A stretch of DNA of 64,000 nt. It comes from Branchiostoma floridae. Taxonomy: Eukaryota; Chordata; Leptocardii; Amphioxiformes; Branchiostomatidae. The notes under the pieces were generated by a model. That model was not told the origin of the DNA. It did not search any database and saw nothing but the letters and a program-made list of their open reading frames with translations. A program made the position numbers and the translations under genes. This document shows, piece by piece, positions 23,834 to 60,507 of this stretch (position 1 is its first letter; every line of letters begins with the position of its first letter). The stretch lies in NCBI RefSeq assembly GCF_000003815.2, contig NC_049982.1, positions 4,387,423 through 4,451,422 of the forward strand, in the 5' to 3' direction.

Positions 23834-25183
23834 TTAGAACCCTTGATGATAACCGGGCTGGATACCAATCCATGGGTAGCTCTCTACCCTTGTCCTTGTC
23901 TTTGCCTTAGGTTGTTCGTCTTCTGCAGTGTGCTTGGTGGCGGTGGTGGCTTTGCCAGTGTTCCTGTTAAGGAACTACAGGGGCAGAGAGCAGAACTGTG
24001 TCTCAGAACTGTGTATTGTAGATATTAGATGAAAATGTATACTGTACGATGCCTAGCATGTCATGTCTAAGGTTTAAGTTTTAACTTAAGTCATGCAGAT
24101 AAGGAACAAACGTGACTCACCATGTTAGCTTCTGCTGCGCAGATGGCGGCGCCTGTAGCTATCATCAGCACTTCCGCTATCTTATGCTTGTGCACTGGAG
24201 GAAAGCCCAAAATAATGACTGACATGTAATGACAGTAGATTCATGGAAAGTATAGCCTCCTTGGGGCCTCCCAGGTTTGGCGTTCAATGTTAAAATGTCA
24301 TTCTTAGATAACCACGTAAAGGGTGTCAAAACAAAGGACTTACAACCTGATTCCAAACAAGATAGACTAGATAGATTTGCCTTGACATCATTAAAAGTTC
24401 TGAAATAAACTTTGACATTATGCTGCAGTATACTTCAAACTGAAACATATTCTCATGGTCAAAACAAGCTGGATTTGTTGACCATGTCCAAAATCATATC
24501 CAGTTGCTTGAGTAACTTTTTGGCCAAGGTAGATCTATGTTGACATGGGGCAAAGATTTGTAATAAAGAGTCACAAATGCTGCAATGAACTTCTATATGC
24601 ACACCTGCAGTATTCGAGTGCAATTCCTTATGAGCAACAAACGCAATGAACAAAAGATCTACCATATTAGCACTGTAGAAATTGCGGAGAGTCTTACCTG
24701 CCAGACTGGTAAGGCTAGGCATGGGGATGGGGAAAATCTTCGTGAACACCTGGGCAGGGGGGGCCTGGGGGGCTGAAGGAGAAACTCCATGTTCACTAGT
24801 TAACTACACAGTCATGTAGAATACAACTATTCAGGACACAAACACCAACAAAAAGCCCTGTAGCTGTCATGAAAAGACATACAACTTGTTAGGTTAAGGC
24901 AGCTAACAGTTACACTTATCAACATACATACTAGTACCTGACCAACGTTTGTACATGAGTAACTTTATACAATCAGTAACAGAGAAGTTAGTGATGAAAC
25001 CTTACCTGCCAGCTAGTTAACTGGCCTTGTCCCCAACATTACAGTTATCTACCTGCCTGACCAACATCTGTACATCAGTATTGTTAGAAGAGAAGTTAAT
25101 GGTCAAACCTTACCTGCCAGCATGTTGACTGGCCGCACCCCCGTCAGGCCCCGCATAGCGGCCCTGCCCAGGGTTCCAAACAT
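23834..25183 (-). CDS. Unrecognised small single-pass membrane protein, copy A
   Basis: Four coding exons (25183-25114, 24772-24698, 24194-24121, 23974-23834) join in phase with GT-AG sites to 119 residues. The N terminus MFGTLGRAAMRGLTGVRP is Arg-rich, without acidic residues and amphipathic, resembling a mitochondrial presequence (inference). A Pro/Ala stretch follows, then one hydrophobic segment IAEVLMIATGAAICAAEANM, a charged Lys/Thr linker and the C-terminal signature YPWIGIQPGYHQGF. I do not recognise the family. Two paralogues (B, C) in this window encode the same architecture with the same exon ends and phases, which supports a real gene. Copy A has an intron (24195-24697) that B and C lack and 8 extra residues around it. 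A 5' untranslated exon with a good donor is at 25898. Confidence 0.78.
24195..24697 (-). other. Intron specific to copy A
   Basis: In B and C the coding sequence runs uninterrupted across this position. The A intron contains a decayed Penelope-type fragment (ccaaaatcatatccagttgc, 24487-24506). Either A gained an intron around inserted sequence or the common ancestor of B and C lost it. Confidence 0.6.
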
Positions 25184-25897
25184 ATGGGTGATCCTGTTGA
25201 ATAAAGAAACAATCACGTTACTCCTTGGTAAACACATGACAAAACATGATGAATAAATACTCATACCTCCATCGGTCTGTGCCTAAATCAGCAAGATTGT
25301 TCTCTACTGTTGGCAACAACGATGCAGCACAGATACTGTGGAGAGGTTTCAATGGAACAACCAGAATATTTTACTCATGAGAACGTTGAATGGTTCTAAG
25401 TTCACATAATTCAGACTCTCCGCTATGGAGGCGTCGCCAAAAACTGCGTAACATGTTTGCTTGTTCTTTAACCATGAGTCCACAAATAGTGTTAAGTACT
25501 ATCATAAAATAACCTGTTGGCAGGGCTTAAAATACAACTCTTTTGCATGGTCTAAATATTAGATAAAGTTAGCGCCCCCTCCCCAACACCGTACCAAATT
25601 ATGCAGCGATTCAACCGGGTTGTCTATCCAGTTTTGTTGATGTGTTCACTGCAGTTAGTTACAAACTGGCTTCCCTGGTGTTTCTATATCCTTATGAACG
25701 TGTCAACAAGAAAAGACCTATTTTCTAGAATCATCATAAATTTTTAAATGTGAAACTCTTCCTCCAAAAGCCCCGAGTGTTGAAAAGCGAAGTTCATGTG
25801 AGTTTTCGCGTAAACGTAAGGCATAACTCAGATAGTTAGTGATCAAATGCCTTTGAATGGTTAGAAAATATGGTTACATGACGTTTATAAAACTTAC

Positions 25898-26040
25898 AGA
25901 AGGTGCTGTTGTTGTATACGCTTTGATACTGCAAAGGTAACGCTACGTCGACGTCCTCTCTCGGGGGCGTCCAAGTGCAGAATGATGAGGTAGTCGCCTG
26001 GATCGTTGCTAAGTGCCCCGCGGCGAATCCACTTCATGTT
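25898..26040 (-). other. Probable 5' untranslated exon of copy A
   Basis: A minus-strand donor (accttct|gtaagtt) at 25897 follows sequence conserved in B (from 47075) and C (from 61236), including ggatcgttgctaagtgc or its variants. The upstream end is approximate. Confidence 0.5.
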
Positions 26041-26700
26041 TTGTGGGGATGACTATAAAAACTGGGACAAGATTTTACTACATTCCAATCATTTTGATGT
26101 TACAAGAAAGCATTTGATGTTGAATATCAATGAAATAAAAATGAAAAATGACGTCCTAACTTTCCACAATAACATTTTTTGTCTAAATAATGTAGTGCTA
26201 TAAACGTTAGAATAACCTCCTCGAACGAATGGCCCGTTCTAAAATTTGCATATCTGGGGATTCCTTAGCAACTGCGCGGCAACAAGTGCAAAGTGTAAAC
26301 AAACGCCCAGGTGTGGGAGGGGGGCGAAATTTTATCATGAATTTTATGTCATTTTACGACAAATAAAATTCAAGAAAACGGAATGAAGTAAAAAGAAGAC
26401 TAACAAGATGGAAGCTCTGTGGTATGACACAAAGTAAAACAGCATCGATACTTGCGTCAAGCCGTGAAACACTTGATAAATCATTGTATTTCGTGTTTTT
26501 TTTCGAAAGGAGGTAAAAATGAAAAACCTTTATTACACGTTCATGAACCAACGAGCTTTGTAACGTTACAGGTCGTCTATCGTATGACTTGTGTATAGAC
26601 AATAATATACAAGGCCTAGGGAAACATACAATCAAGGAGACTGATACAATGTACTGTGCTTCACCGGTGCATCGGCCGCGTGTACTCTAACATAGATGAG
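26041..26700. repeat. Upstream flank of copy A
   Basis: Nearly identical to 61380-62045 in copy C and recognisable in B (47220-47750). It includes the conserved words ggattcc, gtgcaaa and gtgtgggaggggggcg. No coding sequence. The right border is interrupted by the hAT composite. Confidence 0.75.
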
Positions 26701-29675: not shown

Positions 29676-30728
29676 CTGATATAGCGTCCCAGACGCAATA
29701 TCTCCAATCTCAGCACACCCAGTGTGCTCGCTGCAAACTGCCATAGTCAAAGCTAAGGCCTAAGCCGCAACATAACTTACGTCCCAGACGTAAGATATCC
29801 AGTCTCTGCACACCCAGTGTGCTCGCTGTAAACTGCCATAGTCAAAGCTAAGGCCTATTAAAGCAGCAACATAACTTACGTCCCAGACGCAAGATATCCA
29901 ATCTCAGCACACCCAGTGTGCTCGCTGCAAACTGCCATAGTCAAAGCTAAAGCCTATTAAAGCAGCAACATAACTTACGTCCCAGACGTAAGATATCCAA
30001 TCTCAGCACACCCAGTGTGCTCGCTGCAAACTGCCATAGTCAAAGCTAAGGCCTATTAAAGCAGCAACATAACTTACGTCCCAGACGTAAGATATCCAAT
30101 CTCAGCACACCCAGTGTGCTCGCTGCAAACTGCCATAGTTAGAGCTAAAGCCTATTAAAGCAGCAACATAACTTACGTCCCAGACGTAAGATATCCAATC
30201 TCAGCACACCCAGTGTGCTCGCTGCAAACTGCCATAGTCAAAGCTAAGGCCTAAGCCGCAACATAACTTACGTCCCAGACGTAAGATATCCAATCTCAGC
30301 ACACCCAGTGTGCTCGCTGCAAACTGCCATAGTCAAAGCTAAAGCCTATTAAAGCAGCAACATAACTTACGTCCCAGACGTAAGATATCCAATCTCAGCA
30401 CACCCAGTGTGCTCGCTGCAAACTGCCATAGTCAAAGCTAAGGCCTATTAAAGCAGCAACATAACTTACGTCCCAGACGTAAGATATCCAATCTCAGCAC
30501 ACCCAGTGTGCTCGCTGCAAACTGCCATAGTCAAAGCTAAGGCCTATTAAAGCAGCAACATAACTTACGTCCCAGACGTAAGATATCCAATCTCAGCACA
30601 CCCAGTGTGCTCGCTGCAAACTGCCATAGTCAGAGCTAAGGCCTAAGCAGCAACATAACTTACGTCCCAGACGCAAGATATCCAATCTCAGCACACCCAA
30701 TGTGCTCGCTGCAAACTGCTGTAGTCAG
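29676..30728. repeat. 95/99-bp satellite array with paired CCA-loop palindromes
   Basis: About eleven units. Starts of cataacttac fall at 29771, 29870, 29969, 30068, 30167, 30262, 30361, 30460, 30559 and 30654, giving periods of 99 (mostly) and 95 (twice). Most units contain cttacgtc-cca-gacgtaag and agcacac-cca-gtgtgct, two perfect palindromes with the same 3-nt centre, about 13 bp apart. Units at about 29880 and 30667 carry gacgcaag, which breaks the first palindrome. The 95-bp form lacks part of cctattaaagcag. Confidence 0.95.
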
Positions 30729-34152: not shown

Positions 34153-34188
<36 letters not shown>

Positions 34189-36220
34189 AACAAGATAACT
34201 CAAGAACGGCTGGATGGATTAGTTTCATACTTGGTGTGTTGGTGGGGTGCGATGAAAGCTGGAAGTGATTAGATTTTGGGCACCCTAGCGGCTTCCCTTG
34301 ATACTGCAGCGCAACTTCTGGTTTTGCTATCTCGTGTTCTGAACACGCTATGGTCACGATTTTTGAGTGTTAGATAGCTCTTGTGCTCAGAAATAAGTGA
34401 CATAAGTTTTGGCCCCCTACCGACTAGGTTTGGGAAAGCAGGTGCATTTTTGTCAAAAAATTCTGAAGAGGATAACTCAAGAAGGGAACAATGGATTTTC
34501 ATGATTTTTGGTATGTAGGTACCTTAGACAATGTTGTACAAGATAAGATACTAATTATGCAAAATAGGAGTACATTTGCATAATTAATGAGAATATTCTA
34601 TCATGGCAGTTTTTTCAATGTATCTCTTGTCCCGGACATGATATAGTCTTGACATTTGGGTGGTAGATAGCTTGCAGTGTCATGACAAAGTGGGGCAGAT
34701 TTCAGCCCCCTAACATGTAAATTCGGAACTGCAGGGGCGTTTTTGTCTAGACATTCCAAAGAAGATAACTGCAGAAAGGATTGACAGATTGGCATCATTT
34801 TAGGGGTGCAGGTAGCTTAGGCAAAGGTGTTCATAATGATATACATGTTATGCAAATGAGGACCTTATGTGCATAATTAATGAGGAAATTGTATAATACC
34901 ATTATTAGCAATAACTGGACTTCAATAAATGTAACACTTATTAATTATGATAGATGGAATATAAGCAGATACCAAATATGGTAATGAGGAACTTATTTGC
35001 ATAATTTATATAAAAATTGCAAAGCAGCTTTATGTCTAATGATTGGAATTTTATACTTGTGACATGTGTATGTTAGTCAATGATGAACAACACCACGCAT
35101 AAATTATGTTAATGCATTAGTCAATTGTATGAAATTTACAAAAGCTCTAAATTTTCATGGAGGTATGAGGTCGCCGAACTCTAGTTTACCCTGCGTTTGT
35201 GTGTCTGTCTGTCTGTCTGTCTGTCAACAAGAAAACCCAAGAACAGCTGGATGGATTGGTTTCATACTTGGTGTGTTGGTAGGGTGTGATGAAAGCTGGA
35301 CGTGATTAGATTTTGGGCCCCCTAGCGGCTATCCTTAGTACTGCAGCGCAACTTCCGGTTTTGCTATCTCGTGTTCTGAACAAGCTATGGTCCCAATTTT
35401 TGAGTGTTAGATAGCTCTTGTGCTCAGAAATGAGTGACATAAGTTTGGGCCCCCTAGCGTCTAGTTTGGGGATAGCAGGGGCATTTTTTGTCAAAAACTT
35501 CTGAAGCAGATAACTCAAGAAGGGAACAACAGATTTTCACGATTTTTGGTATGTAGGTACCTTAGACAATGTTGTACAAGATAAAATACTAATCATGCAA
35601 AATTAGAGTACATTTGCATAATTAATGAGAATATGCTATCATAGCAGTTTTTTCAATGTATCGCCTGTCCCGGAAATGATATGATCTTGACAATTAGGTG
35701 GTAGACAGCTTTCAGCGTCATGACATGGTGGGCCAAGTTTCAACCCCCTAACATCTAATTTTGGAACTGCAGGGGTATTTTTGTCAAGACATTGCAAAGA
35801 ACATAACTGCAGAGAGGAATGATGGATTTCCATCATTTTAGGCATGCAGGTAGCTTAGGCAAATATGTTCATAATGATATACATGTTATGCAAATGAGGA
35901 CATTATTTGCATAATTAATGAGGAAATTTTATAATTCCATTATTTCAATAACTTGACTTCAATAAATGTAACAAATGTACATTATGACAGATGGAACATA
36001 AGCAGATGCCAAATATGCTAATTAGGAACTAATTTGCATAATATATGCGAAAATTGCAATGATATTTGCTCGATGATTATTGATAGGAATTTCATACTTG
36101 ACGTGTATGTTTGTCAATGATGAACATCACCATGCATGAATCATGAAAATGTGCAAGTCTGTTGCATGAAATTTACAAAAGCTTGAATATTTCATGGAGG
36201 TATGAGGTCGCCGAACTCTA
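34100..36220. repeat. Two tandem units of about 1.04 kb
   Basis: Each unit opens with accc(a/t)gcgtttgtgtgtctgtc and a GTCT microsatellite, then shared words (caagaac, ctggatggatt, ttcatacttggtgtgttggt, ttttgctatctcgtgttctg, tgcataattaatgag), and closes with ggaggtatgaggtcgccgaa at 35160 and 36195. Similarity is high but clearly diverged. A diluted relative is at about 54480-54790. No coding sequence. Confidence 0.85.
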
Positions 36221-36660
36221 GAGTGAGTGATTGAGTGAGTGAGTGAGAGATTGAGTGAGTGAGTGATTCAGTGAGTGAATGAGAGAGTGAGTGAGTGAGT
36301 GAGTGAGTGAGTGAGTGAGTGAGTGAGTGAGTGAGTGAGTGAGTGAATGAGTGAGTGAGTGAGTGCGTGAGAGTAAGTGACCAACTGAATAGTTGGATGA
36401 GAGCGAAAGAACGAATTAATGCATGGGTGGATCGATGGATGGATGAAGTAATGAAGAAATGAACAGTTGGAGGAATGAACGAAGGGTTATTGCATGTTTT
36501 AGAAAATTATCGGACTTTCCTGCATGAATAGGTAAATGAATGGATGAGTGAGTGAGTGAGTGAGTGAGTGAGTGAGTGAGTGAGTGAGTAAGTCAGTCAG
36601 TCAGTCGGTCACTGAGTAAGTCAGTTAATGAGTCAGTGAGTGGAGTAAGTAACCAAGTGA
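36215..36660. repeat. GTGA microsatellites
   Basis: Long gtgagtgagtga runs at about 36217-36370 and 36540-36600, linked by ggatggatg words. These lie immediately 3' (in minus orientation) of the donor of the small secreted protein exon. Confidence 0.9.
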
Positions 36661-37429: not shown

Positions 37430-38060
37430 GAAATATATTTAAGAACCGTCTGCAAGACACGTTTCTCTCTGGTTGGAGACAAGAATTAAGAAGTTTTAAC
37501 AAACTCAGTACTTATTGTAAAATAAAAAAAAATTCTGTTTCGAAAAATATCTTTCATCCGTTCAAAACAAATTGTTTAGAAATGACCTAACGAGACTAAG
37601 GATTAGTGCACACACGTTACAAATTGAAAAGGGCCCACACTACAACATACCAGCCAATGAGAGACTTTATCCCACATGCCATAATGACATAGAAAATGAA
37701 TTTCATTTTGTAATGGATTGTCCGACTTATGAAGAAGACCGTCAAAAGTTATTTCAAAATATTGTATGTAAGTCCGAAATTGTACTACCACATGCTAGGT
37801 CAGAGGTATTCCATTTGATATTATCTTGTCCTGTTCATATATCTGCCTACGTTGGCCAATTTATTTACAACTCATTGCAAAAACGAGATAATGCTTTATG
37901 ATACTCACTAGATTGTTTATACTGTTATATTATATTACATTAGTTGTTAGTTATATTATATTACATTAGTTGTTAGTTATTTGTATTAGTATATAGTTGT
38001 TCACATTGCCATACATTGTAACTGTTACAATTGTTGCGCAATAAAGTTATTCTATTCTAT
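37430..38060 (+). pseudogene. 5'-truncated LINE 3' end
   Basis: Encodes the C terminus of a non-LTR retrotransposon ORF2 (about 37572-37901): RLRISAHTLQIEKG, IPANERLYPTCHND, ENEFHFVMDCPTYEEDR, the usual Cys/His-type tail. It ends after aataaag in a ttattctattctattc repeat, a typical LINE microsatellite tail. A second copy is at 47890-48240. Confidence 0.8.
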
Positions 38061-41241: not shown

Positions 41242-41249
41242 TATAAAAG
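41242..41249 (+). promoter_or_regulatory. TATA box of the short-collagen gene
   Basis: tataaaag lies 103 bp upstream of the chosen ATG, a suitable distance for a start site near 41270-41280 and a short 5' UTR. Confidence 0.65.
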
Positions 41250-41351
41250 CTGTTAGGCAGGCTAAAGAAACTCAGATACATCTGGCGATCACTCTCGAAC
41301 ACCGCCAACGTGGTAGCTGGAAGTCGATCTTCCTTTGAGACCCGACGCAAG

Positions 41352-42209
41352 ATGAGTGGTCAGGTAACAGTAGTCGTGTTCGCAGCGTCTGTCCTATCCT
41401 TGCTGTCTGCCTGCTCAGCAGTAGAAGGCGAGGAAGGCTCGTGTCCGGAGAAGTTGGCGAACAGCAACGTGAACAACATCACGGTCGTGGCTCCGCTCGG
41501 ACCGAAGGGGGACGCCGGGCCGCCCGGACCGAGGGGCGTTCGCGGAGAGAAGGGGGAGGAGGGCCGTCCCGGGAAGCTCGGGCCACGCGGCTTAGAGGGC
41601 CAGAGGGGTGAGAGAGGAGCTCCGGGACAGAAGGGCAGCAAAGGCGATGAAGGAATAGGCGGGGGAGCTGTGTATGTACGGTGGGGGCGGACGTCGTGCG
41701 AGGAGGGTGGTGCAGGCACGGCGACGGTGTACTCTGGGATGGCCGGCGGCGCGTGGTACAACCATAAGGGCGGCGGCAGCAACTACCAATGCCTGCCTGC
41801 AAACCCCGAGTGGGGCTGGCATAAAGACGGTTTTCAGAACACCTACATGTACGGCGCGGAGTACCAAATCGGCGCGGACTCTCCCTACGACGCTAGCAAG
41901 ATCCACGACCGTAACGTGCCGTGCGCCGTCTGTCACTCACCGTTCCGCCGCGCGCAGCTGATGATCCCCGCCCGCCAGACCTGTCCCGGAGGCTGGACGC
42001 GGGAGTACGGGGGCTACCTGATGACCGCCCACCACACCCACAGCCGCACGGAGTTCGTGTGCATGGACGGGGAGCCCGAGGCGCTGCCCGGCGGGGAGGG
42101 GAACGAGGACGGCGCGCTGTTCTACGTCGTGGAGTCCCGGTGCGGCTCGCTGCCGTGCCCGCCGTATGTGGAAGGGAGGGAGCTGACCTGCGTGGTGTGC
42201 ACCGTGTAG
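41352..42209 (+). CDS. Secreted short-chain collagen-like protein with conserved Cys-rich C-terminal domain
   Basis: A single-exon gene encoding 285 residues from MSGQVTVVVFAAS. The start is chosen because a signal peptide (hydrophobic core ending SACSAVEG) follows directly and a TATA box lies upstream; an in-frame Met 14 codons earlier lacks this. The body has 17 uninterrupted Gly-X-Y triplets (GPKGDAGPPGPRG through GSKGDEG), enough for a short trimeric collagen helix. The C-terminal domain (about 165 residues) contains VYVRWGR, WYNHKGGGSNYQCLP, PEWGW, YGAEYQI, VPCAVCH, QTCPGGWTREYGGYL, EFVCMDGEPEALPG and ELTCVVCT, with about ten Cys. It resembles proteins named short-chain collagen C4-like in marine invertebrates (family recollection, not searched). 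Likely extracellular, possibly lectin-like or matrix. Very GC-rich. A truncated duplicate is at 55137-55676. Confidence 0.88.
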   Translation: MSGQVTVVVFAASVLSLLSACSAVEGEEGSCPEKLANSNVNNITVVAPLGPKGDAGPPGPRGVRGEKGEEGRPGKLGPRGLEGQRGERGAPGQKGSKGDEGIGGGAVYVRWGRTSCEEGGAGTATVYSGMAGGAWYNHKGGGSNYQCLPANPEWGWHKDGFQNTYMYGAEYQIGADSPYDASKIHDRNVPCAVCHSPFRRAQLMIPARQTCPGGWTREYGGYLMTAHHTHSRTEFVCMDGEPEALPGGEGNEDGALFYVVESRCGSLPCPPYVEGRELTCVVCTV

Positions 42210-42257
42210 ACATCACGAAAACACAAACTGGACAGTCTTTAGTTTTCCAAAGTAGTC

Positions 42258-42805: not shown

Positions 42806-42856
42806 TGCCCTGAGGAAGGTGACAGACGGTCACCGAAACGTTGTTGTGAATAAAGT
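42806..42856 (+). ncRNA. Hammerhead-like stem with downstream AATAAA
   Basis: ctgagga-a-ggtgac-agacg-gtcacc-gaaac-gtt, followed by aataaa at 42849. Same layout as the 20731 motif including the extra A. The cleavage triplet would be GUU and stem I pairs poorly. The duplicate at 56018-56065 changes only the loop (agact), with the stem intact. The AATAAA may serve as polyadenylation signal for the collagen gene. Confidence 0.45.
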
Positions 42857-43282
42857 CATGGTTAAATATGTAAAAAGATTCTCTTTATTCAGTGACGTAC
42901 AAACCTATTGAAACCATTCACTGATGTGCTAAAGTGATGTCAAGTTCTAAGAGAAACAGCTGCTATTTTTCTCTAATGCAAAATGATCCAGTTATAATAG
43001 CACGGTCTGTTGCTAGAAGCTTTTAGCGATGTTTATGCACATAAGTGTTTATCAATTTTGAACACATCAGTTCGGATATTTTGCTTGAAGTTTGTGTTTA
43101 AAGGAGCAAAACAGCGGCACTGCGATTATGATGAAAGGCCGGTGGCAGTCCTCTACTGTATGGAAAGGTACCAACAGTAAATCATCTGCACTTTAGGTGC
43201 GTGTTTTACTAAAATGCCTCCTCAGCATATTTTAAGTCAAATCTGGCTCAAGTCCAATTTGGCTATTCTGTTTGGAATAGTG
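42857..43282. other. Duplicated spacer 3' of the short-collagen gene
   Basis: Collinear with about 56066-57362 once the insert at 56690-57045 is removed. No gene recognised. Confidence 0.6.
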
Positions 43283-43340
43283 TGATTGGGTACCTTCCAA
43301 ACTGGCAGATGACATATTTCTGTGTGGGGAACATAAAGTG
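43283..43340 (+). pseudogene. PEX16: Relic of the terminal PEX16 exon, copy B
   Basis: gattgggtaccttccaaact through ggcagatgacatatttc and tggggaacataaag matches 19655-19710 with few substitutions and a small deletion that removes the YNWG codons and shifts the frame. The preceding tttggctattc also matches PEX16 intron 9 (19556-19566). This anchors the duplicated block to the PEX16 3' end. Confidence 0.85.
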
Positions 43341-43639
43341 GTCGTGGATGTTATACCTTGTAGGTTTTCAAACAGATTCAGTCGTAGACACTCAGGTGCT
43401 GTTTATATAATCGTCTAATCTGAGGTATGGTTAATAGTGTACAGAAGTTGACGATGGCGTGTGCTCAGTGCTCGGGTGGTGGTGCAAAGAGGAAGAGAGA
43501 GTCCGGTGTTCTCTTACTTTAAATTTGAGCCACTTGATATTTAGATGTTACCTGGGCTATGCACATTGGAGTGGAGGGGTGTTTTCTAACTATCAATAGT
43601 ACGGATATTACAACAGTGGAAGTCTAACATTAATGAATA

Positions 43640-43755
43640 TACTTGATATGAACCCAATTATCACAACAAGTACCACAGTCAACTGTCACAGCTATACTTT
43701 AATATATTACTAGTCAGACTAGTATATCAAGTGTAGCTGTGACAGTTCCCAAGCT
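43640..43755. repeat. Long palindrome in copy B
   Basis: aactgtcacagctatacttt on the left is inverted as the right arm ending gctgtgacagtt, with tactagtcagactagta at the centre. Copy C (57630-57680) retains only the right half, so one arm was deleted there or duplicated here. Confidence 0.7.
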
Positions 43756-43855
43756 CTATAGGACCCCGCTAACTTTTTTGGTGTTAACGTGTTTGAATTA
43801 AGAATTACTGTGACAGTCATATATCCATACATCCCTCTACCATCATTTTTCTATA

Positions 43856-44100
43856 ACTTTCACTCACTCACACACCCATTCACTTAATTACTCATTCACG
43901 GAAACACACATTCTCACACTCATACACTCACACATTCACTCGCACTCACACACCCATACACCCACACATTCACTCTCATATACTTACACACTCACTCACT
44001 CTCACTCACTCACACACTTACACACACACACACACATTCACTCACTCACACACTAGTTCACTCACTCATTTACTTACTCTCACACACTCTCACTCAATGT
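43856..44100. repeat. CACT/CACA microsatellite, copy B
   Basis: cactcactcacacacccatt-type words leading to gtaagttatcctataatac, the same junction as in A and C. Confidence 0.85.
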
Positions 44101-45900
44101 AAGTTATCCTATAATACAGCTTGAGTTAAATGAGCATCAACCAAATATAACAAAGACAAGGCTGTTACTTGGGAAGAGAGATTTTATTTTGATAACATGA
44201 TTGTCCTGTGGTACTTTTTTCTGTATACATTTAACAGGTTATACACACTATATTCATGCCAGATACAGGTACAGGTACAGGTGAAGTAAATTTACAGGTA
44301 CAAATCAAAGTAAACTGTAGATAACTATTGACTGTTAACATTACATGTAACATGGGTTTTATACATCCGAGTGTAAAATCCTAGATCTACATAGATAGAC
44401 CAAAGACTAGATATAAACAATAATACAAGATCTAACAACAGTCAAAATATATTAACATTTTGCTCATTTCTCAAGTTTTCTCAATTTTTTTCTGCGTAAA
44501 TTTACCAGGTTATACACATTATATTCATGTTATTTACAGGTATAGATTGAAGTAAATTTACAGGTACAGATCAAAGTAAATGTACAGGTATAGATTGAAA
44601 TAAACTGCCGTTAACTAGTGACTGTTAGATGTAACATGGGTTTTATATATATAGCCTGTAAAATCAAAGTTCTACAATAGCCTGCAAAGGTATTGTAATT
44701 AATGTGCTGTCTCTTAAGTTGTTTAATGTGCCTTTTATTTGTTTAATGTGCCATAGGATTGTTTTGCCACAGTCGACGCTGTAGGGCTGATGTCACTTAG
44801 GATTTTACAATGGTCAATATTGACTTAAGAAGGCCATATATGGTGCCAGTATATACAAAAAGAATGGGGAGTGTGACAATAAAAATCACACGATTTGAAT
44901 ATTTGATTAAAAAAAAAACAGAAATAAACCAATCAACTCCAAAATAGGAATTTCAGGGGAAAAAATGACAAGCTGAGAGTCCAGGATACCCATGCCACAG
45001 ATGTTGTAGTGGGGAGACCCCTGCGCGCAAACAGACCGTAGTCTGCTTGGGGTCTCCCCTGGCATGGGTCCTGGACATTGGGGTGGGGTGGCGGCTGTGT
45101 GAGGATGTTAAATCTATAAATTTAGTTTAAAAACCATGCCAAAATGAATAGAAATTTAAACAGCAAGCTGAGAGTCCAGGATACCCATGTGTAGGGAGAC
45201 CCCGGCCCCTAAGCAGACCGAAGTCTGCTTGGGGTCTTCCCTGGCATGGGCTCTGGACAGTAGGAAGGGGATGGGTCTGTATGTAATGAATAAATTTTGG
45301 TTAAAAAACATGCCAAAAAAATAGAAATTTAAATAACAAGCTGAGAGTCCAGGAATCCCATGCCACAGATGTTATGGTGGGGAGACCCCGGCCCATAAGC
45401 AGACCGAAGTCTGCTTGGGGTCTCCCCTGGCATGGGTCCTGGACAAGTTGGGCAGTGGAAGGGATGTAGATGTAGGGTTTTGCCATTATAAAAGGATTGA
45501 TAAATTTTGTTTTGTTTTTGAAATGTCAAAATGCAAAGAGAAAAGAAAAACTTATAGCACACTCCCCATTCAAAAAAAGACAAATATGGGACAATGTTAT
45601 AACAACTGAATGAAATGTCAAATTTTTCAACCATATAACGTTAACACATATAACTTTCAATGTCATAATGAGGTTATTAGTTGTTTCTTGGCCTATATTA
45701 GAGAAAACTAGAAAAAGACGTACATGATTTTACAAACTGTATGTACCTGCACATTAGGTTAAGACATCAGAAATACCAACGCAGATCTAATTTTATGTTA
45801 AGCTGAATTTAAAAACACTACAGGCAAACATAAAAGTATTTTTTTTTTCTTATTCCCAAGTTTTTAGATTTTTTTCCCAGGTATTCCTGAAGAATTCTCT
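44100..45900. repeat. Copy B of the duplicated block, 3' portion with hairpin array
   Basis: Three hairpin units at 44979-45076, 45174-45258 and 45347-45444, with the same three-layer folding as array A; the middle unit has a shortened outer arm. Spacer words are shared with A and C. No coding sequence. Confidence 0.85.
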
Positions 45901-46591
45901 TTACCACCCTTGTTGGTAGCCTGGCCCCACCCCTATCCAGGGGTAGGTAGGTGCCTTCCTCGCTGGTGTGTCTGCCGATGTTGATTTGTCTTCGGTTTCG
46001 ATCGTCTTCTTGTTCCGATTAAAGAACTGCAAGGGCAGAGAACAAAAATCTGTCTCAGAATTGTGTATTGTGGATATCGGATGAATGTATATGATATCTA
46101 ACAATTGTCATTTCTAAGGATGAGTTTTAACTTACTTGTCATGCAGACAAGGAGGAAACGGGACTCACCATGTGTGCTTCTACGGCACAGATTGTAGTGC
46201 CCGTTGAAATCATTGCATACTCAGCAATCTTCGGCAAGGTAGGGATGTTGGAGAAAATCTTCGTGAACACCTGGGCAGGGGGGGCCTGGGGGGCTGAAAG
46301 AGAAACACCATGTTCACTGTTTAACTACACAGTCATGTAGAATACAACTATTCAGGACACAAACACCAACAAAAAATAAGCCCTGTACCTGTCATAAAAA
46401 GACATACGACTTACAATGGTAGGTTAAGACAGTTAACATTACAGCTATCTACCTACATACCTGACCAACATGTGTACATCAATATAATTATTGTTAGAAG
46501 AGAAGTTAGTGTGAAACTTACCAGCCAGCATGTTGATTGGCCGCGCCCCCGTCAGGCCCCGCAAAGCGGCCCTGCCCAGGGTTCCTAGCAT
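45901..46591 (-). CDS. Unrecognised small single-pass membrane protein, copy B
   Basis: Three coding exons (46591-46522, 46293-46169, 46026-45901) join in phase to 106 residues. N terminus MLGTLGRAALRGLTGARP, then APPAQVFTKIFSNIPTLP, the hydrophobic segment KIAEYAMISTGTTICAVEA, a charged linker and the C terminus YPWIGVGPGYQQGW. Exon 2 is the fusion of what are exons 2 and 3 in copy A. All splice sites are canonical and no frame is broken, so it appears functional. Substitutions against A are mostly conservative and the termini are preserved, which argues for protein-level constraint. Function unknown; mitochondrial targeting is a guess from the N terminus. Confidence 0.78.
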
Positions 46592-47780
46592 TTACACTTT
46601 CCTGTTGAATAAAGAAACAGTTAACGTTACTTCTTAGTAAACACGAGAAATAGTGTAAAGTACCGTCGGTGGTATCCTGGCGGCAAGGCTTGAAATACCC
46701 CCGGGCCCCGTACAACTTTTAATACATGGTTCAACAAAGATTTGACGCTGGCGCCCCCTCCCCTTACCACCGTAACAATGCAGTCTTTCAACCGGGTTGT
46801 CTGTCCAGTTTGTTGATGTGTTAACTGCAGTTACATGTAGTTACGTACTGGCTTCCCTTACGTTTCTATCTTTTTGTCAGCAAAAAATAACTTGCATACA
46901 CCGGTAAGATTTCCACGCTCTACGTTCATGGATTCAAAACCCTTGCCCTCCCCAAAACCCCTTGTTGAAAAGTTAGCGAAGTGCATGTGAATTTACGGTA
47001 AAGATCGGGTAGTTAGTGATAAAATGCCTTTGAATGGTTCGGAAACTTCGTAAAACGTGACGTGTAAAACTTACAGAAGGGGTTGTGGTTGTGTACGCTG
47101 CTCTCGCAAATTGACGACCACCTACGACGGCGTTCAAGTGCTGAATGGTGAGGTAGTCGCCCGAGGCGTTGCTAAGTGCGCCGCGGCGAGTCCACTTCGT
47201 GTTGTGTGGGGATGAACGAAAAAGTTCGGACAACTTTTACACCGCATGCCGATCGTTCTGACGCTTCAAGAGAGTATTTATTGACGTATAATGTGTATGA
47301 AGACGAATAATGAATCCTTGCCTTTCTACGATAAAGTCGTGGACTAAATATTCTAATCATAAAAAGTAACTACAACCTCGTCGAATGGAATGGTACGTTC
47401 TAAAATTTGCATATCGAGGGATTCCCTGGCAACCGCGCGGCGGCAAGTGCAAAATGTAAACAAACCCCAAGTGTGGGAGGGGGGCGAAATTATATCATGA
47501 ATTTCATGTCATTTTTACGATTTAATATAGTTATAGACTCTAAGAACGCGGAATGAAAGAAAATGAAGGCTAACAAGATGAAAGCTCTGTGATATGAAAT
47601 AAAGGCAAACAACATCTTCACTTTCGTCAAGCAATGGAAATACGAAATAAATCAGTGTATTCCTTTGCTTTATTCACGCTAATCATGTGTTTTTCTTCGT
47701 TAAAAAGATGTTAAAAGATCTTAAGTGAAAGACCTCATTCAGGTCGTCTATCCTTTATCCTATAAACATTATTATTAGAA
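46592..47780. repeat. 5' flank of copy B
   Basis: Contains a conserved 5' untranslated exon (from 47075, donor ttct|gtaagt on the minus strand) and diverged upstream sequence homologous to A 25500-26560. Homology ends around 47770. It is more diverged from A than C is. Confidence 0.65.
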
Positions 47781-48608: not shown

Positions 48609-51600
48609 TCACGTTTGCGTAACCTCTAGATCTCGAGCGACAACTCTGTCTCCAAATGACATGAAAACACTTCTCGGTTTAACCCCCATGCTGGGGTTGT
48701 GGACTGTTTTGAGCTGTGCATTCTGAGAATGAGGAAAGGCTCCTCTCTTTGACATAACTGCCATTTTCATGTTTGTTGGCTTGTTCACATGAACAGTACC
48801 CTGCAGGTTTGTGTCCTGGGTGGTACCAAAGTCTCCAAAGAACATGATGGGGTTGCTTGGCATTTTGGATCTCTCCAGATCCTTTCTAACAGGATCTGGA
48901 GGAGCACCAGGTATTCTACTTTCTGTTGAAGGTTGTTTTGAAATGAACAAAGGATAGTAATTTGCAGGAGAGTGGCTGTCCAGTGCACTGCCATCACTTG
49001 TGTGTGCAGCTGAAGCCTCTGAATCAATGTCCCTCTTTGATCTCTTTTTACCCTGAAACGTCTCTTCAGACCATTTTCTCTTCCTCCTGCCCCCTTCACT
49101 ATCACCACAGTCTGTGTCAGAGTCGATTGTTGACCTTACCTCTGACCTTTCACCTTCAGAGCAATCTAAATCCTCCTCAAACCAACCCAACGAGTGGCAC
49201 ACAATGGGTTCCTCGTCCAGATCTCCGATGGTTGGGATTCCTCCCAGTTCCATCTCAAGCTCATTCAGAAGAAACTGGTTCAAATCCTCTTCTCTGGCTT
49301 TTTCTTCCTTGGGGTTGTCGTCAAATGGGTCTGCATCAGCTGCTTTCTTCTTTGCATCATGTGTCCATGTCAACTGACTTAAGTACTGGAACTCCTGTAC
49401 CTCCTCTTTTACCTTGACCTTGGTACAGCTTGATGAAACATTGTTATCATCTGAAGAAGTATCTTGCATAGAGTTTGACTCAAAGGTCTTGCTGAGAGGC
49501 TTGCAAACTTCCTCACAAGTGGGAATTTTCTCCTTCTCTTTGTCAATACCAGCATTTTGCAGAGGAGCACTTTGGCTGCTAGCTGCTGCTTTATATGTTT
49601 CATTTTGCTTGTCTGTTGTTTTGCAGGTTGCACCACCATGTAAACTCTCTTTCCCGTGGACGTCATCATTGCTGTTGATGCCAACAGTTTTCTGCATGAC
49701 ATCGTTAGATCTAGAGGCCAGTGCACCTGTTTCCCTTCCCTGGGAACTTCTTACCATTGTTCCTGAATTTGGGAGTGTGGCACTATTTTTCGCCAGTGTT
49801 CCAGAGTTCTGAACTATGGTACCATTTTCTGCCATTGTTCCTAAGTCCTGTAGTACAGTGCCATTTCTTGCAACTATTCCCAAGTTCTGGGGTATGGTAC
49901 ATTTTTCTGCCAGCATTTGTGAATTCAGGGGGATGGTCCACTTTTCTGGCATTGTTACCAATTTCTGGGTTATGGTAGGATTTCCTGCTTGTGCTCTTGA
50001 ATTCTGGACTATGGTACCATTTCCTGCTAGTGCTTCAGCATTCTGGACTATGGTACCATTTCCTGCTTGTTCTCCTGAATTCTGGACTATGGTACCATTT
50101 CCTGCTTGTGTCCCTGAATTCTGGACTATGGTACGATTTCCTTCTTCTGTCCCTGAATTCTGGACTATGGTACCATTTCCTGATTGTGCTCCTGAATTCT
50201 GGACTATGGTACCATTTCCTGCTTGTGCTCCTGAATTCTGGACTATGGTACCCTTTCCTGCTTGTGCTTCAGCATTCTGGACTATGGTACCATTTCCTGC
50301 TTGTTCTCCTGAATTCTGGACTATGGTACTATTTCCTGCTTGTGTTCCTGAATTCTGGACTATGGTACGATTTCCTTCTTCTGTCCCTGAATTCTGGACT
50401 ATGGTACCATTTCTTGCTTGTGCTCCTGAATTCTGGACTATGGTACTATTTCCTGCTTGTGCTCCTGAATTCTGGACTATGGTACCATTTCCTGCTTGTG
50501 TCCCTGAATTCTGGACTATGGTACCATTTCCTGCTTGCATTGATTTTCCTAAATTTTGGACTATAGTACCATTTTCTGATTGTGCTCCTGAATTCTGGAC
50601 TATGGTACCATTTCCTGTACCAGTACCATTTCCTGCAACTGTTCCCAAGTTCTGGACTATGGTACCATTTCCTGCTGGTGTTTCTGAGTTCTGGACTATG
50701 GCACCATTTCCTGCCAGTGTTCCTGAATTCTGGACTATAATACCATTTGCTGTACCAGTACAATTTCCTGCAACTGTTCCCAAGTTCTGGACTATGGTAC
50801 CATTTCCTGCCAGTGTTCCTGAATTCTGGACTATGGTACATGTACCATTATCTGCTGTTGTTCCTGTGTTCTGGAGTAACTTTGTACAAGCCTGCTTGAC
50901 CTCTTCGAAGTTGAAGTACCTGCCATTGGCAGCATGCATGATGTTCGCCGCACTTTGTTTAGTCACCCGAATACTGCCAGTGTACAGGTAATCCAAGAGC
51001 TGGGCAAATGCAGAGGCCTTGAGATTCTTGTCTCCGTCACTCAGTCTTACACTTACAGCAACAACAAAGCCTTTTCTGTTTAGTACATCGAACAAAGACT
51101 GGAAGTAACTACTGAATGCTGCCAGAACCATCCTGAAGAAACAAACAGAAAGAAGAACAAAAAAGNNNNNNNNNNNNNNNNNNNNNNNNNNNNNNNNNNN
51201 NNNNNNNNNNNNNNNNNNNNNNNNNNNNNNNNNNNNNNNNNNNNNNNNNNNNNNNNNNNNNNNNNACAAACCAAAGAGGAAATAATGATACTGATACTAT
51301 CAAGCAACTTTGCAGTGCCAGACAATTACCAGTATAGTTAACCACCATAGATAGATGAGAGCTTTGCTTTTGTTTTAGTTTATACTTATAGTTCATTGTC
51401 AAAGAGCTAGCCCATGTAATAACCGACCAATGGCTTCATATAGTTGGGCAGGCCTGGTCGTGTGTCTTTAAATAAAAAACAATCACTGGAAAGTAAAAGC
51501 ACTTCTTACCTATGGCATCTGAATTGTTGGTCCTCCACAATGATGGTCACATCACAGAGTTCACCGTCGTTGCGCATCTGGTTCAGCCTGCACAGTAGAG

Positions 51601-51664: not shown

Positions 51665-51764
51665 CACAGCAGGTTCTAAGACTTGTGAAATGAAAATAAC
51701 ATACAGTTCAGTGGCCTTGTGTAAAGTCTGTTATTTAATAACAAACTTTACAATATGAGTATTT

Positions 51765-52122: not shown

Positions 52123-52600
52123 CAATAAATGTACATTTCTTAAGTCACTGACGAAAGCTTGTGATTGCTATTAAAAAATTATGAAGCGTCTGACTGTTTA
52201 CAGCTAAGTCACCTTTGTATAACCGGTGTATCTTATCACAGTGGCTAACCTTCATAAATCAAGGAGGTAAAAATGCTNNNNNNNNNNNNNNNNNNNNNNN
52301 NNNNNNNNNNNNNNNNNNNNNNNNNNNNNNNNNNNNNNNNNNNNNNNNNNNNNNNNNNNNNNNNNNNNNNNNNNNNNGTCGCTGACTACACTCCTTGGCC
52401 AGTTTGGTACTACCTTATGCCATTGTAGGATCTGCTTGGAGATTACAATAAATGTACATTTCTTAAGTCACTGACGAAAGCTTGTGATTGCTATTAAAAA
52501 ATTATGAAGCGTCTGACTGTTTACAGCTAAGTCACCTTTGTATAACGGTGTATCTTATCACAGTGGCTAACCTTCATAAATCAAGGAGGTTAAAAATTGC
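52056..52600. repeat. About 220-bp near-identical direct repeat around a 100-N gap
   Basis: 52057-52277 and 52379-52600 agree from cgctgactacactccttggc through taaccttcataaatcaagga with only one or two single-base differences. The right copy starts inside the MITE. A degenerate hammerhead-like segment (cactgacgaaagcttg, gaagcgtctgactg) is in each. This looks like redundant sequence at an unresolved gap. Confidence 0.9.
52278..52377. other. Assembly gap (100 N)
   Basis: Flanked by duplicated sequence on both sides. Confidence 0.99.
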
Positions 52601-55136: not shown

Positions 55137-55676
55137 GTTGATACCACCAAGGAGGTGCATGCGACGCGGGCACGGTGACGGTGTACGTACTCTGGGATGA
55201 CCGACGGACTGTGGTACAACCATAAGGGCGGAGGTAGCAACTACCAGTGCCTGCCTACGGACCCCGAGTGGGGCTGGCACAAGGACGGTTCACAGAACAG
55301 CCGGGAGGCCTACATGTTCGGTGCGGAGTACGAAATCGCCGCGGACTCTCCCTACGACGCCGGTTCACTTAACAACCGTAACGTGCCGTGCGCCGTGTGT
55401 CACACACCGTCCCGCCGCGCGCAGCTGATGATCCCCGCCCGTCAGACCTGCCCGGGAGGATGGACGCGGGAGTACGGGGGCTACCTGATGACTGCCCACC
55501 ACTCCTACAGCCGCACGGAGTTCGTGTGTATGGACGGGGAGCCCGAGGCGCTGCCGGGCGGGGAGGGGAGCGAGAACGGCGCGCTGTTCTACATCGTGGA
55601 GGCCCGCTGCGGGTCGCTGCCGTGCCCCCCGTACGTGGAGGGGAGGGAGCTGACCTGCGTGGTGTGCACCATGTAG
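55137..55676 (+). pseudogene. Truncated duplicate of the short-collagen gene (C-terminal domain only)
   Basis: About 160 codons from MTDGLWYNHKGGGSNYQC to the stop are about 90% identical to 41740-42209, retaining all the Cys and the terminal ELTCVVCTM. The signal peptide, collagen triplets and promoter are absent. A 4-nt insertion (gtac within gtgtacgtactctggg) breaks the frame just upstream. The remaining frame is open, so it could serve as an exon of another gene, but no acceptor or upstream exon is evident. Downstream sequence matches the 3' flank of the intact gene. Confidence 0.8.
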
Positions 55677-56689
55677 ACATCACGAAAACAGAAACTGGAC
55701 AGTCGTTATTTTTCTGAATGCCAAAAGTTCCGTGTTGGAAGCCTTAAGAACCAAACGTATTAATGACTGCTCTGTTAAGCTTCACTGCAATATTTCTATT
55801 GTTTATAACATGTCAACTTATATATCTGGATGTCTCGATTCGACGATTTGGTAGATATTTCAACCATTGACTTTCAAAACGTAAAAGAAAACGTTATTGC
55901 TTATATGAAGTGACAAAACAATATCATAATGTATGTAGGGATCTTGTATATGTATTGAAGCAATGGAAGAATTCGAATATAAAGAGGATACTGGTAGGGT
56001 GAAGCAGTCAGAATTGTCAGAATTGCCCTGAGGAAGGTGACAGACTGTCACCGAAACGTTGTTGCGAATAAAGCCATGGTTTAATATGTAAAAAGATTCT
56101 CTTTATTCAGTGACCTACAAACCTATTGAAACCATTCACGGATGTACTAATTAAAAGTGATGTCAAGTTCTAAAAGTCCACAGCTGCATCGACATTTCTC
56201 TGTTGTCCAGCTGCTAACACAAAAACTCTGCTGCGCATGGTCATATAAGAGCGAACAAGTACATGTAGTAGTCTACCAGACTCATGCCTGCCCGAATATT
56301 AATATGGGACTAAACGTCTAGTTGGAGATAATTGGCCTAGGAGTGAACTGGCCGGCCGGCAGATAGCTGTATCAATTACAACAAGAAAATTAAACTTCCT
56401 TTGCAGATAGACTGCAAAAGACTGACTGAAATCCCATAGAAATTTATTTGCCCCTATTTGGCCAACTTTTTTTCCATCCAGCTGACACGTCTGCTTGGAG
56501 ACTAAACATGTAGTACAGAACACCAAAGCTTAACTGCAACTCAGATTGATGATTAGCATCAGAAGTTCATGGAGACATAGACCGACTGTGCATCTGACAG
56601 CCAAGTTCTTCTCGCATCATCTGCAAATATGTCTAATTAAGCACAAAAACGTAAGATTTAAGAGAAACGACTGCTACGTGTTTCTCTAA
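55677..56689. other. Duplicated spacer 3' of the collagen-like relic
   Basis: Collinear with the intact gene's 3' flank: the hammerhead-like stem (56018-56065) and aaaaagattctctttattcag are shared. At about 56320-56510 copy C has extra sequence absent from B, ending cgtctgcttggagacta, which resembles one end of the MITE family at 37081. Confidence 0.6.
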
Positions 56690-57045
56690 TGCGATAAGAT
56701 CTTATGAAAATCTTATGAAAATCACACGAATCACTATGCGAAAACGTACGAACCTTATGTGACACACACGAACCTTATGTGATTTGCACGAACCTTATGC
56801 GAAACCGGTCAACCGTCGCCAGGTCACGTGATATCACGTCATTCTCATAAGGTTCGTGCAAATCACATATTTAAGTTCGTCCGTTTTCGCATAATGATTC
56901 GTGTGATTTTCATAATATTCGTGCGTTTTCGCATAGTGATTCGTGTGATTTTCATAAGGTTCGTGCGTTTTCGCATAGTGATTCGTGCGTATCAAATAAC
57001 ATTCGTACGAATCTCATAGGGTTCGTGCAAATGCTTAGGCACCCC
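56690..57045. repeat. Insert of tandem and inverted gtgattcgtg / cataaggttcgtg words
   Basis: Absent from the equivalent place in copy B (42985-43000). About 46-bp units combine attcgtgtgattttcataa and gttcgtgcgttttcgcatag; left-half units are inverted relative to right-half units around aaaccggtcaac. Palindromic overall; possibly a foldback element. No terminal duplication confirmed. Confidence 0.8.
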
Positions 57046-57362
57046 TGCAATTATAATAGCACGGTCTGCTGCTAGAAGCTTTTAGCGATGTTTATGCATA
57101 TACTAAGTAAGTGGTTATGAATTTTTAACACATCCGTTCGGATATTTTGGTTGAAGCTTGTGTTTAAAAGAGCGAAACAGCGGCACTGCGATTATGATGA
57201 AAGGCCGGTGCCAGTCCTCTACTGTATGAAAAGGTGTACATGTACCAACAGTAAATCATCTGCACTTTAGGTGCTTGTTTTACTAAAATGACTCATCAGC
57301 TAATTATAAGTCAAATCTGGCTCAAGTCCAATTTGGCTATTCTGTTTGAAATACTTGTAGTG

Positions 57363-57420
57363 TGATTGGGTACCTTGCAAACTGGCAGAGGACATATCTC
57401 TGTGTGGGGAACATTAAGTG
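57363..57420 (+). pseudogene. PEX16: Relic of the terminal PEX16 exon, copy C
   Basis: gattgggtaccttgcaaact, ggcagaggacatatctc, tggggaacattaag: the same truncated exon as 43283-43340 with the same internal deletion, so the damage predates the B/C split. Confidence 0.85.
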
Positions 57421-57784
57421 GTCGTGGATGTTGTATCTTGTAGGTTTTCAAACAGATTCAGTCGTAGACACTCGGGCGCTGCTATATATAAACGTCTAAT
57501 CTGAGGTATGGTTAGTAGTGTACAGAAGTTGACGGTGGCGTGTGCTCAGTGCTCGTGCAAAGAGGAAGAGAGAGTCCGGTGTTCTCTTACTTTAAATCTG
57601 GAGCCACTTAGTATTTAGATGTTGCCCCTTTAACATACTAGTCAGACTAGTATATTAAGTGTAGATGTGACAGTTCCCAAGCTATATAGGACCCCGCTAA
57701 CTTTTTTGGTGTTAACGTGTTTGAATTAAGAATTACTGTGACAGTCATATATCCATACATCCCTCTACCATTAGTTTTCTTTAA

Positions 57785-58015
57785 CTTTCACTCACACACC
57801 CATTCACTCGCTCATTCACTGCCACACACATTCACTCACTCATTCACTGCCACACATTCACTCACTCACACACTCACTCACTCATACACTCACTTACACA
57901 TTCACTCACTAACTCACACACATTCACTCACCCCCCCCCCCCCACACACACATTCACTCACATGCTAGTTCACTCACTCATTAACTTACTCTCACACACT
58001 CTCACTCAATGTACT
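57785..58015. repeat. CACT/CACA microsatellite, copy C
   Basis: Includes a C13-type run (about 57931-57943) and ends in gtactatcctataatacagc as in copy A. Confidence 0.85.
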
Positions 58016-59827
58016 ATCCTATAATACAGCTTGAGTTAAATGAGTATCAACCAAATATAACAAAGACAAGGCTGTTACTTGGGAAGGGAGATTTTATTTT
58101 GACAACATGATTGTCCGTAGGTACTTTTTTCTGTATACATTTAACAGGTTATACACACTATATTACATGCCAGGTACAGGTACAGGTGGAGTAAATTTAC
58201 AGGTACAGATCAAAGTAGACTGTAGATAACTATTGACTGTTAACATTACATATAACATGGGTTTTATACATCAGAGTGTAAAATCCTAGATCTACATGAT
58301 ATTCTGTACAGGTACAATTATTGTGCTGTCCTCTTTAATAGCTGTTTTGTGATAGACCAAAGACTAGATATAAACAATAATACAAGATCTAACAACAGTC
58401 AAAATATATTAACATTTTGCTCATTTCTCAAGTTTTCTCAATTTTTTTCTGCGTAAATTATCCAGGTTATACACATTATATTCATGTTATTTACAGGTAC
58501 AGATCAAAGTAAATATACAGGTACAGATCAAAGTAAATGTACAGGTATAGATTGAAATAAACTGCCGTTAACTAGTGACTGTTAGATGTAACATGGGTTT
58601 TATATATATAGCCTGTAAAATCAAAGTTCTACAATAGCCTGCAAAGGTATTGTAATTAATGTGCTGTCTCTTTAGTTGTTTAATGTGCCATAGGATTGTT
58701 TTACCACAGTCTATGCTGTAGTCAATTAGGATTTTACAATGGTCAATATTGACTGAAGAAGGCCATATATGGTGCCANNNNNNNNNNNNNNNNNNNNNNN
58801 NNNNNNNNNNNNNNNNNNNNNNNNNNNNNNNNNNNNNNNNNNNNNNNNNNNNNNNNNNNNNNNNNNNNNNNNNNNNNNNNNNNNNNNNNNNNNNNNNNNN
58901 NNNNNNTGAGAGTCCAGGAATCCCATGCCACAGATGTTATAGTGGGGAGACCCCTGCGCGCAAACAGACCGTAGTCTGCTTGGGGTCTCCCCTGGCATGG
59001 GCCCTGGACAGTGGGGTGGGGTGGTGGCTGTGTGAGGATGTTAACTCTATAAATTTAGTTTAAAAACCATGCCAAAAAGAATACAAATTTAAATGAGCAA
59101 GCTGAGAGTCCAGGATACCCATGTGTAGGGAGACCCCAGCCCCTAAGCAGACCGTAGTCTGCTTGGGGTCTCCCCTGGCATGGGCTCTGGACAGTAGGAA
59201 TGGGGTGGGACTGTATGTAATGAATATATTTAGGTTAAAAAACATGCCAAAAAAAAATAGAAATTTAAATAACAAGCTGAGAGTCCAGGAATCCCATGCC
59301 ACAGATGTTATGGTGGGGAGACCCCGGCCCATAAGCAGACCGAAGTCTGCTTGGGGTCTCCCCTGGCATGGGCCCTGGACAGGGTGGGCAGTAATGGATG
59401 TAGATGTAGGGTTTTGCCATTATAAAAGGATTGATAAATTTTGTGATGTTTTTGAAATGTCAAAATGCAAAGAGAAAAGAAAAACTTATAGCACACTCCC
59501 CATTCAAAAAAAGACAAATATGGGAAAATGTTATAACAACTGAATGAAATGTTAAATTTTTCAACCATATAACATTAACACCTATAACTTTCAATGTCAT
59601 AATGAGGTTATTAGTTGTTTCTTGGCCTATATAGAGAAAACTAGAAAAAGACGTACATGATTTTACTGTATGTACCTGCACATTAGGTTAAGACATCAGA
59701 AATACCAACGCAGATCTAATTTCATGTTATGTTGAATTTAAAAACACTACAGGCAAACATAAAAGTATATTTTTTCTGCTTCCCAAGCTTTTAGATTTAT
59801 TTCCCAGGTATTCCTGAAGAATTCTCT
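58016..59827. repeat. Copy C of the duplicated block, 3' portion with hairpin array
   Basis: Collinear with B 44100-45900 and nearly identical in places. Hairpin units at 58912-59009, 59108-59192 and 59285-59380. The 129-N gap replaces about 120 bp present in B, so its size fits. Confidence 0.85.
58778..58906. other. Assembly gap (129 N)
   Basis: Non-round length, apparently size-estimated; the B copy predicts the missing sequence. Confidence 0.99.
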
Positions 59828-60507
59828 TTACCACCCTTGTTGGTAGCCTGGCCCCACCCCTATCCAGGGGTAGGTAGGTGCCTTCCTCGCTGGTGTGTCT
59901 GCCGATGTTGATTTGTCTTCGGTTTCGATCGTCTTCTTGTTCCGATTAAAGAACTACAAGGGCAGAGAACAAAAATCTGTCTCAGAACTGTGTATTGTGG
60001 ATATCGAATGAATGTATATGATATCTAACAATTGTCATTTCTAAGGATGAGTTTTAACTTACTTGTCATGCAGACAAGGAGGAAACGGGACTCACCATGT
60101 GTGCTTCTACGGCACAGATTGTAGTGCCCGTTGAAATCATTGCATACTCAGCAATCTTCGGCAAGGTAGGGATGTTGGAGAAAATCTTCGTGAACACCTG
60201 GGCAGGGGGGGCCTGGGGGGCTGAAGGAGAAACATCATGTTCACTAGTTAACTACACAGCCATGTAGAATACAACTATTCAGGACACAAACACCAACAAA
60301 AAGCCCTGTAGCTGTCATGAAAAGACATACAACTTACAATGGTAGGTTAAAACAGTTAACATTACAGTTATCTTACATGCCTGACCAACATCTGTACATC
60401 AGTATTGTTAGAAGAGAAGTTAGTGATGAAACCTTACCTGCCAACATGTTAACTGGCCGCGCCCCCGTCAGGCCCCGCAAAGCGGCCCTGCCCAGGGTTC
60501 CAAACAT
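59828..60507 (-). CDS. Unrecognised small single-pass membrane protein, copy C
   Basis: Three coding exons (60507-60438, 60220-60096, 59953-59828) join in phase to 106 residues. N terminus MFGTLGRAALRGLTGARP (first residues as in A), exons 2 and 3 essentially as in B, ending YPWIGVGPGYQQGW. Splice sites are canonical and the frame is intact. The upstream flank, with a 5' exon from 61236, is much closer to A than to B, so the gene is a mosaic. Function unknown. Confidence 0.78.

Follow-up and report, generated by a model that had tools for sequence, protein, structure and literature searches.

Three loci in a 64,000-nucleotide stretch of the genome of the lancelet Branchiostoma floridae (contig NC_049982.1, positions 4,387,423 to 4,451,422; this whole stretch is the window referred to below) encode small proteins that share the C-terminal motif YPWIG-x2-PGY-x-QG. 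They are here called copies A, B and C. The explanation that best accounts for the data, with the chances for and against it about evenly balanced, is that these are tandem nuclear genes for a small protein with the mitochondrion as its probable destination, and that one of them, copy C, is a hybrid of the other two types.

A first-pass annotation of the DNA had placed the copies at 23834-25183 (A), 45901-46591 (B) and 59828-60507 (C), with products of 106-119 residues, and both statements are confirmed. All copies lie on the minus strand, all 7 modelled introns are of the GT-AG type, and the spliced frames are open from ATG to stop, giving proteins of 119 (A), 106 (B) and 106 (C) amino acids. 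In copy A, coding exon 1 (25114-25183, MFGTLGRAAMRGLTGVRPVNMLA) ends in phase 1 and is followed by exon 2 (24698-24772, 75 nt), which is symmetric with phases 1-1; an extra phase-1 intron of 503 bp (24195-24697), which has no counterpart in B or C; exon 3 (24121-24194), which carries the hydrophobic segment; and exon 4 (23834-23974), which encodes a charged linker, YPWIGIQPGYHQGF and the stop. Copy B consists of exon 1 (46522-46591), exon 2 (46169-46293), corresponding to exons 2 and 3 of A without the intron, and exon 3 (45901-46026), with YPWIGVGPGYQQGW and the stop. In copy C, exon 1 (60438-60507) has an A-like upstream flank, and exons 2 (60096-60220) and 3 (59828-59953) are identical to those of B.

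The coding introns number three in A (phases 1, 1, 0) and two in each of B and C (phases 1, 0), so that the earlier statement that splice sites and phases are kept in all three copies is incorrect; near the 503-bp intron of A, 8 alignment columns are gaps in B and C. The copies have exon 1 in common, including the phase-1 donor at its end. In each, exon 2 starts rich in Pro and Ala, and a short hydrophobic segment, a linker of charged residues (longer in A) and the tail, whose motif is identical in A, B and C as first described, are shared as well. Intron 1 is longer in A (341 nt, against 217-228 nt in the other copies) because a second copy of the end of exon 1 with its donor, TGGCAGGTAAG at about 25011, lies inside it (24930-25113 region). 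An acceptor-like TTTCTTTATTCAACAG that ends 10 nt before the ATG is conserved in A, B and C and suggests a candidate 5' untranslated exon, whose donor was not located. Poly-A signals were given no weight, because a single AATAAA occurs 27 nt past the stop of C and neither AATAAA nor ATTAAA was found within 900 nt for A and B. No fourth copy was found in the window by tblastn of the exon peptides at expectation values (E) up to 20, the best match outside the exons of A, B and C having E 0.064.

A, B and C are very probably real protein-coding genes. The synonymous distance (dS) between A and B/C rises from 0.065-0.084 over the first 38 codons to 1.25-1.84 over the last exon, and for this reason the 5' part (exon 1, intron 1 and the beginning of exon 2) appears to have been homogenised. 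The ratio of nonsynonymous to synonymous rates (dN/dS), from our own GY94-type fit on one A/C alignment, was 0.365 over 106 codons (p 4.5e-4), 0.19 over the 70 diverged codons past the homogenised 5' part (p 2.7e-5), 0.298 over the 41 codons of the last exon (p 0.02), and 0.015, at saturated distance, over the last 14 codons from YPWIG to the end (p 4e-4). Among the motif codons YPWIG, PGY and QG, 6 of 10 differ between A and C, and every change is synonymous. Copies B and C add a second comparison: none of the 251 nt of exons 2 and 3 differ, against 3 of 142 in intron 2 and 12 of 293 aligned positions in the 300 nt downstream (95.9% identity; gap columns uncounted). The contrast of 0/251 with 15/435 is significant (Fisher p 0.0017; intron alone, p 0.047), and changes in an intron that lies between two identical exons argue against one homogenising tract. 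The region of the hydrophobic segment and the YPWIG tail are under purifying selection. The earlier claim of selection on the protein thus stands on these comparisons, not on the argument first given for it, which had been the preservation of splice sites, phases and termini within diverged surroundings.

Intron 2 (23975-24120, 46027-46168 and 59954-60095) presents a separate observation. It is 78% identical between A and B/C, more alike than the dS of the last exon predicts, and no Rfam family was detected there at gathering score.

The N terminus, first described as Arg-rich, has 3 Arg in its first 17 residues, and the three exon-1 Arg are present in every copy. A more telling feature is the absence of acidic residues: the first Asp or Glu does not occur before residue 56 in A or 48 in B and C, and 5-6 Arg/Lys fall in that stretch (permutation p 0.022-0.026 for the acid-free N terminus). 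The N-terminal helical amphipathic moment is 0.48-0.52, compared with 0.31 in shuffles (p 0.04-0.08), and residues 1-23, encoded by exon 1, lack by eye the hydrophobic core that a secretory signal would have. The acid-free N terminus and the helical moment fit, without proving, a mitochondrial presequence whose coding sequence would lie wholly in exon 1, and on these features a mitochondrial product is somewhat favoured. The best 19-residue mean hydropathy is borderline in A, at 1.72, and weak in the other two copies, at 1.01; the usual cut-off for single-pass membrane proteins is a mean of about 1.6 over about 19 residues. A transmembrane helix is therefore plausible in A and doubtful in B and C. 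The single hydrophobic segment first attributed to all copies is not confirmed for B and C at this level, and the label of membrane protein, possible for A, is weak for the other two.

Under the mitochondrial explanation, exon 1 would encode a cleavable presequence that is basic, weakly amphipathic and without a nearby acidic residue. The mature part might sit at the inner membrane through its short hydrophobic segment, or be a subunit of the peripheral kind. The charged linker, which evolves freely, would enable the conserved YPWIG..PGY.QG tail to make contact with a partner, much as a small accessory subunit or an assembly factor of a respiratory complex does, although a respiratory-complex partner is itself rather improbable.

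Several points weigh against this explanation. The gene models are predictions from the DNA itself, and nothing but the N terminus speaks for mitochondria, since sequence searches yielded no relative. The amphipathic moment is only marginal, and the three copies do not count as independent cases. The segment may not cross a membrane, because its hydropathy in B and C is low and Glu and His/Asn occur within it. For the coding evidence, dN/dS derives from a single A/C alignment in which the placement of the linker is uncertain and the tail distances are saturated, and the sub-fit for exon 2 (29 codons) ran to infinite distance. Identity between A and B/C is lower in the last exon (58.7%) than in intron 2 (78%) or intron 1 (86-89%). 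A dN/dS near 1 among the copies had been named in advance as grounds for refutation; between A and C such a value was obtained in the 27-codon linker (1.12), which evolves freely, and not over the whole frame.

The alternative that survives best, although we consider it unlikely, is a lineage-specific small protein that is not mitochondrial (cytosolic, nuclear or peptide-like) and whose N terminus is basic by chance. The weak hydrophobicity of B and C, the marginal moment and the lack of a detected homologue all agree with it. It leaves the first 47-55 residues without an acidic residue as a coincidence, and has also to meet the retention of the three exon-1 Arg in every copy, a weaker argument because that stretch looks homogenised.

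The arrangement of the copies was examined by self-comparison of the window. The block that contains B (44974-46644) is 94% identical to the block that contains C (58907-60559), which starts directly after a run of N at 58778-58906. This duplication extends further, since pieces of 41712-46644 match 55166-60559 at 84-94%, the pieces external to the block (back to 41712 and 55166) at 84-91%. On its other side, C has a flank (60358-62045) in common with the flank of A (25035-26700) at 91%, and further out 31985-33194 matches 62037-63254 at 97.5%. The surroundings of the copies, described at first as diverged, are indeed unlike in the 300 nt upstream (A-B 44%, B-C 49% identity), but not in these blocks. 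The C-side copy of the A flank lacks 5.3 kb, within which a 99-bp minisatellite of about 10.7 copies occupies 29685-30727.

A three-way alignment of A, B and C yielded 416 informative sites, of which 171 group A with C, 228 B with C, and 17 A with B. Their distribution along C is strongly divided. Of the 177 two-way sites on the 5' side, above about 60350, 155 join C to A and 22 join it to B; of the 222 on the 3' side, 206 join it to B and 16 to A. The best single switch, at C 60351/60350, was matched by 0 of 2000 shuffles. Sites alternate at about 60226-60480 (minus strand; purely A-like above and purely B-like below), so that the switch zone starts in exon 1 and stops shortly before exon 2 is reached. 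In copy C an A-type upstream sequence is therefore joined to a B-type mature protein, and we are confident that the sequence of C is an A/B hybrid. Such a hybrid could result if tandem copies underwent unequal crossing-over or gene conversion. The split of A and B is old and the duplication of B and C is recent; the family comprises two lineages and one hybrid. The three copies first listed exist as loci, but their independence had been overstated, given that exons 2 and 3 do not differ between B and C and that C is a hybrid.

An origin of C as an allele or an assembly artefact is worth excluding in view of high heterozygosity: PMC4284660 gives, for the Chinese lancelet, polymorphism of 4.39% for single nucleotides and 0.98% for small indels. 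In such a highly polymorphic animal C (or B) might be an alternative haplotype or a misjoin, not a separate gene. The identity of the B-C block and of the piece at 31985 and 62037 would suit this origin, as would the N run of 129 bases that adjoins C on the left. However, the window contains 3 N runs (51166-51265, 52278-52377 and 58778-58906), none at the switch, and the change from A-like to B-like sequence lies in N-free DNA; no N run occurs in 41.7-46.6 kb or at A either. The right flank of C, moreover, is A-like and then joins sequence that lies 5.3 kb further on in A, which does not fit C as a simple allele of either A or B. A haplotype or misjoin is accordingly judged improbable, somewhat more so than the non-mitochondrial protein, and the hybrid is likely to be present in the animal and not an assembly artefact.

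If so, C is a natural promoter swap that couples a B-type mature protein to upstream sequence of the A type, and it would make it possible to separate regulatory from protein differences between the paralogues. If the genes are expressed as modelled, an unnamed small-protein family would be added to animal annotation, in a size class often missed by gene finders.

The family is unnamed within the collections searched (Pfam, NCBIfam, PDB, Rfam and prokaryote and viral contigs, with no animal protein set among them), and within Pfam (for A and C), NCBIfam and the PDB sequences this agrees with the first-pass annotation, which had found no named match. Pfam scans of A and C gave no family, with one chance Integrin_alpha match for C (E 0.085) and none for A. 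NCBIfam gave nothing significant (one match at E 0.044, to one of three members). In PDB, a single-sequence search gave one chance match for C (E 1.8) and none for A, and the best profile match, to ATP synthase subunit d, was not significant (E 0.46). Pattern matches in prokaryote and viral contigs (31 and 3) included zero confirmed cases, and the motif text YPWIG was not found in the literature searched. Other kinds of gene were also rejected. No Rfam match reached gathering score across the whole window, and when 59500-60900 at copy C was scanned by E-value, five weak Rfam matches (E 1.2-4.3) lay far under the cut-offs; no transfer RNA was found. On the opposite strand, the plus frame 60248-60577 at C has no Pfam match at E 0.1, and no plus frame of at least 90 amino acids lies inside A or B.

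Thirteen small respiratory or mitochondrial proteins (3 of them with sequences verified in PDB) were compared with A and C by the Smith-Waterman method, giving 26 comparisons. COX6A1 scored best of all with A (p 0.012) but not with C (p 0.77); the COX6A tail PFPWGDG..LFHN..VN.LP.GYE is not in A, B or C, and no COX6A chain was among the PDB matches. COX7B gave p 0.21 (A) and 0.058 (C), with no COX7B chain in the PDB searches and no Pfam family match, and NDUFA4 (COXFA4) gave p 0.52 (A) and 0.18 (C), again with no chain in the PDB searches. NDUFB1, from an unverified sequence, reached nominal p values of 0.041 (A) and 0.044 (C) without a Pfam or PDB match. It is not counted as a match because of the number of comparisons made, and the two values are not independent because the A and C proteins are 65% identical. 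By chance, 26 comparisons would give a p of 0.012 or less about once in four such sets, and one or two values below 0.05.

A far-diverged known respiratory subunit (COX7B, COX6A, NDUFA4, NDUFB1 or similar), missed by sequence searches, is on this record a quite unlikely identity. It would explain the similar overall plan of presequence, short hydrophobic segment and tail, and a 12-residue stretch common to C and COX7B, AMISTGTTICAV / AVLASGATFCIV, inside the hydrophobic segment. The scores above shuffles for COX6A1 and NDUFB1 tend the same way, but no such Pfam family or PDB chain was recovered, and the scores have the limits just described. That the copies are decaying or non-coding, their frames kept by chance or gene conversion, is already largely refuted and highly improbable: low identity in the last exon, the linker ratio and the homogenised 5' part would agree with it, but three intact spliced frames, low dN/dS in the diverged part, purely synonymous change in the motif codons, and B-C exons 2 and 3 unchanged beside a changed intron and downstream flank do not.

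The most specific version of the mitochondrial explanation would make the protein a lineage-restricted accessory subunit of a respiratory complex, with YPWIG-x2-PGY-x-QG as a new contact motif, A and B as isoforms (perhaps stage or tissue forms), and a hybrid with A promoter and B protein formed by crossing-over inside intron 1, in which upstream sequence of the A type would now control expression of a B-type mature protein. This version is very speculative, and less probable still than a diverged known subunit.

Other features of the window include coding segments of a choline/ethanolamine kinase (Pfam PF01633) at 3510-4067 and 7008-7310 on the minus strand, and a collagen-like gene at 41247-42209 on the plus strand, a second copy of whose C-terminal part (55179-55676, plus) lies inside the B/C duplication. 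A BTB/POZ frame at 48609-51296 (minus) is followed by a 39-bp tandem repeat encoding units of about 13 residues, GNGTIVQNSG; the frame spans an N run. These kinase, collagen and BTB genes, together with the introns, are suggestive of an animal genome. A head-to-tail duplication of 1.03 kb (34158-35184 and 35195-36221) is 87.5% identical. The plus-strand frame 37521-37901, for which Pfam gave no match, may resemble the end of a non-LTR (long terminal repeat) reverse transcriptase.

Compared with known small subunits, this family resembles COX7B, COX6A and NDUFA4 in size range, short hydrophobic stretch and C-terminal tail, and COX7B also in its basic N terminus. It differs in that no match was repeated in both A and C and no counterpart of YPWIG-x2-PGY-x-QG was found; NDUFA4 chains have a short N terminus directly before the helix, and NPEPW after it. 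In the Chinese lancelet, according to PMC4284660, exons are often rearranged, with a bias towards phase 1-1, and exon 2 of copy A is likewise symmetric 1-1. Relative to what is described there, this exon is continuous with the next exon in B and C (an intron gain or loss) and has not moved to another gene. As to the array, neighbouring copies in duplicated blocks, a hybrid with a clear switch and a homogenised 5' tract are what tandem families with unequal crossing-over or gene conversion display. The array thus evolves as tandem arrays ordinarily do, and it is only the gene that lacks a name.

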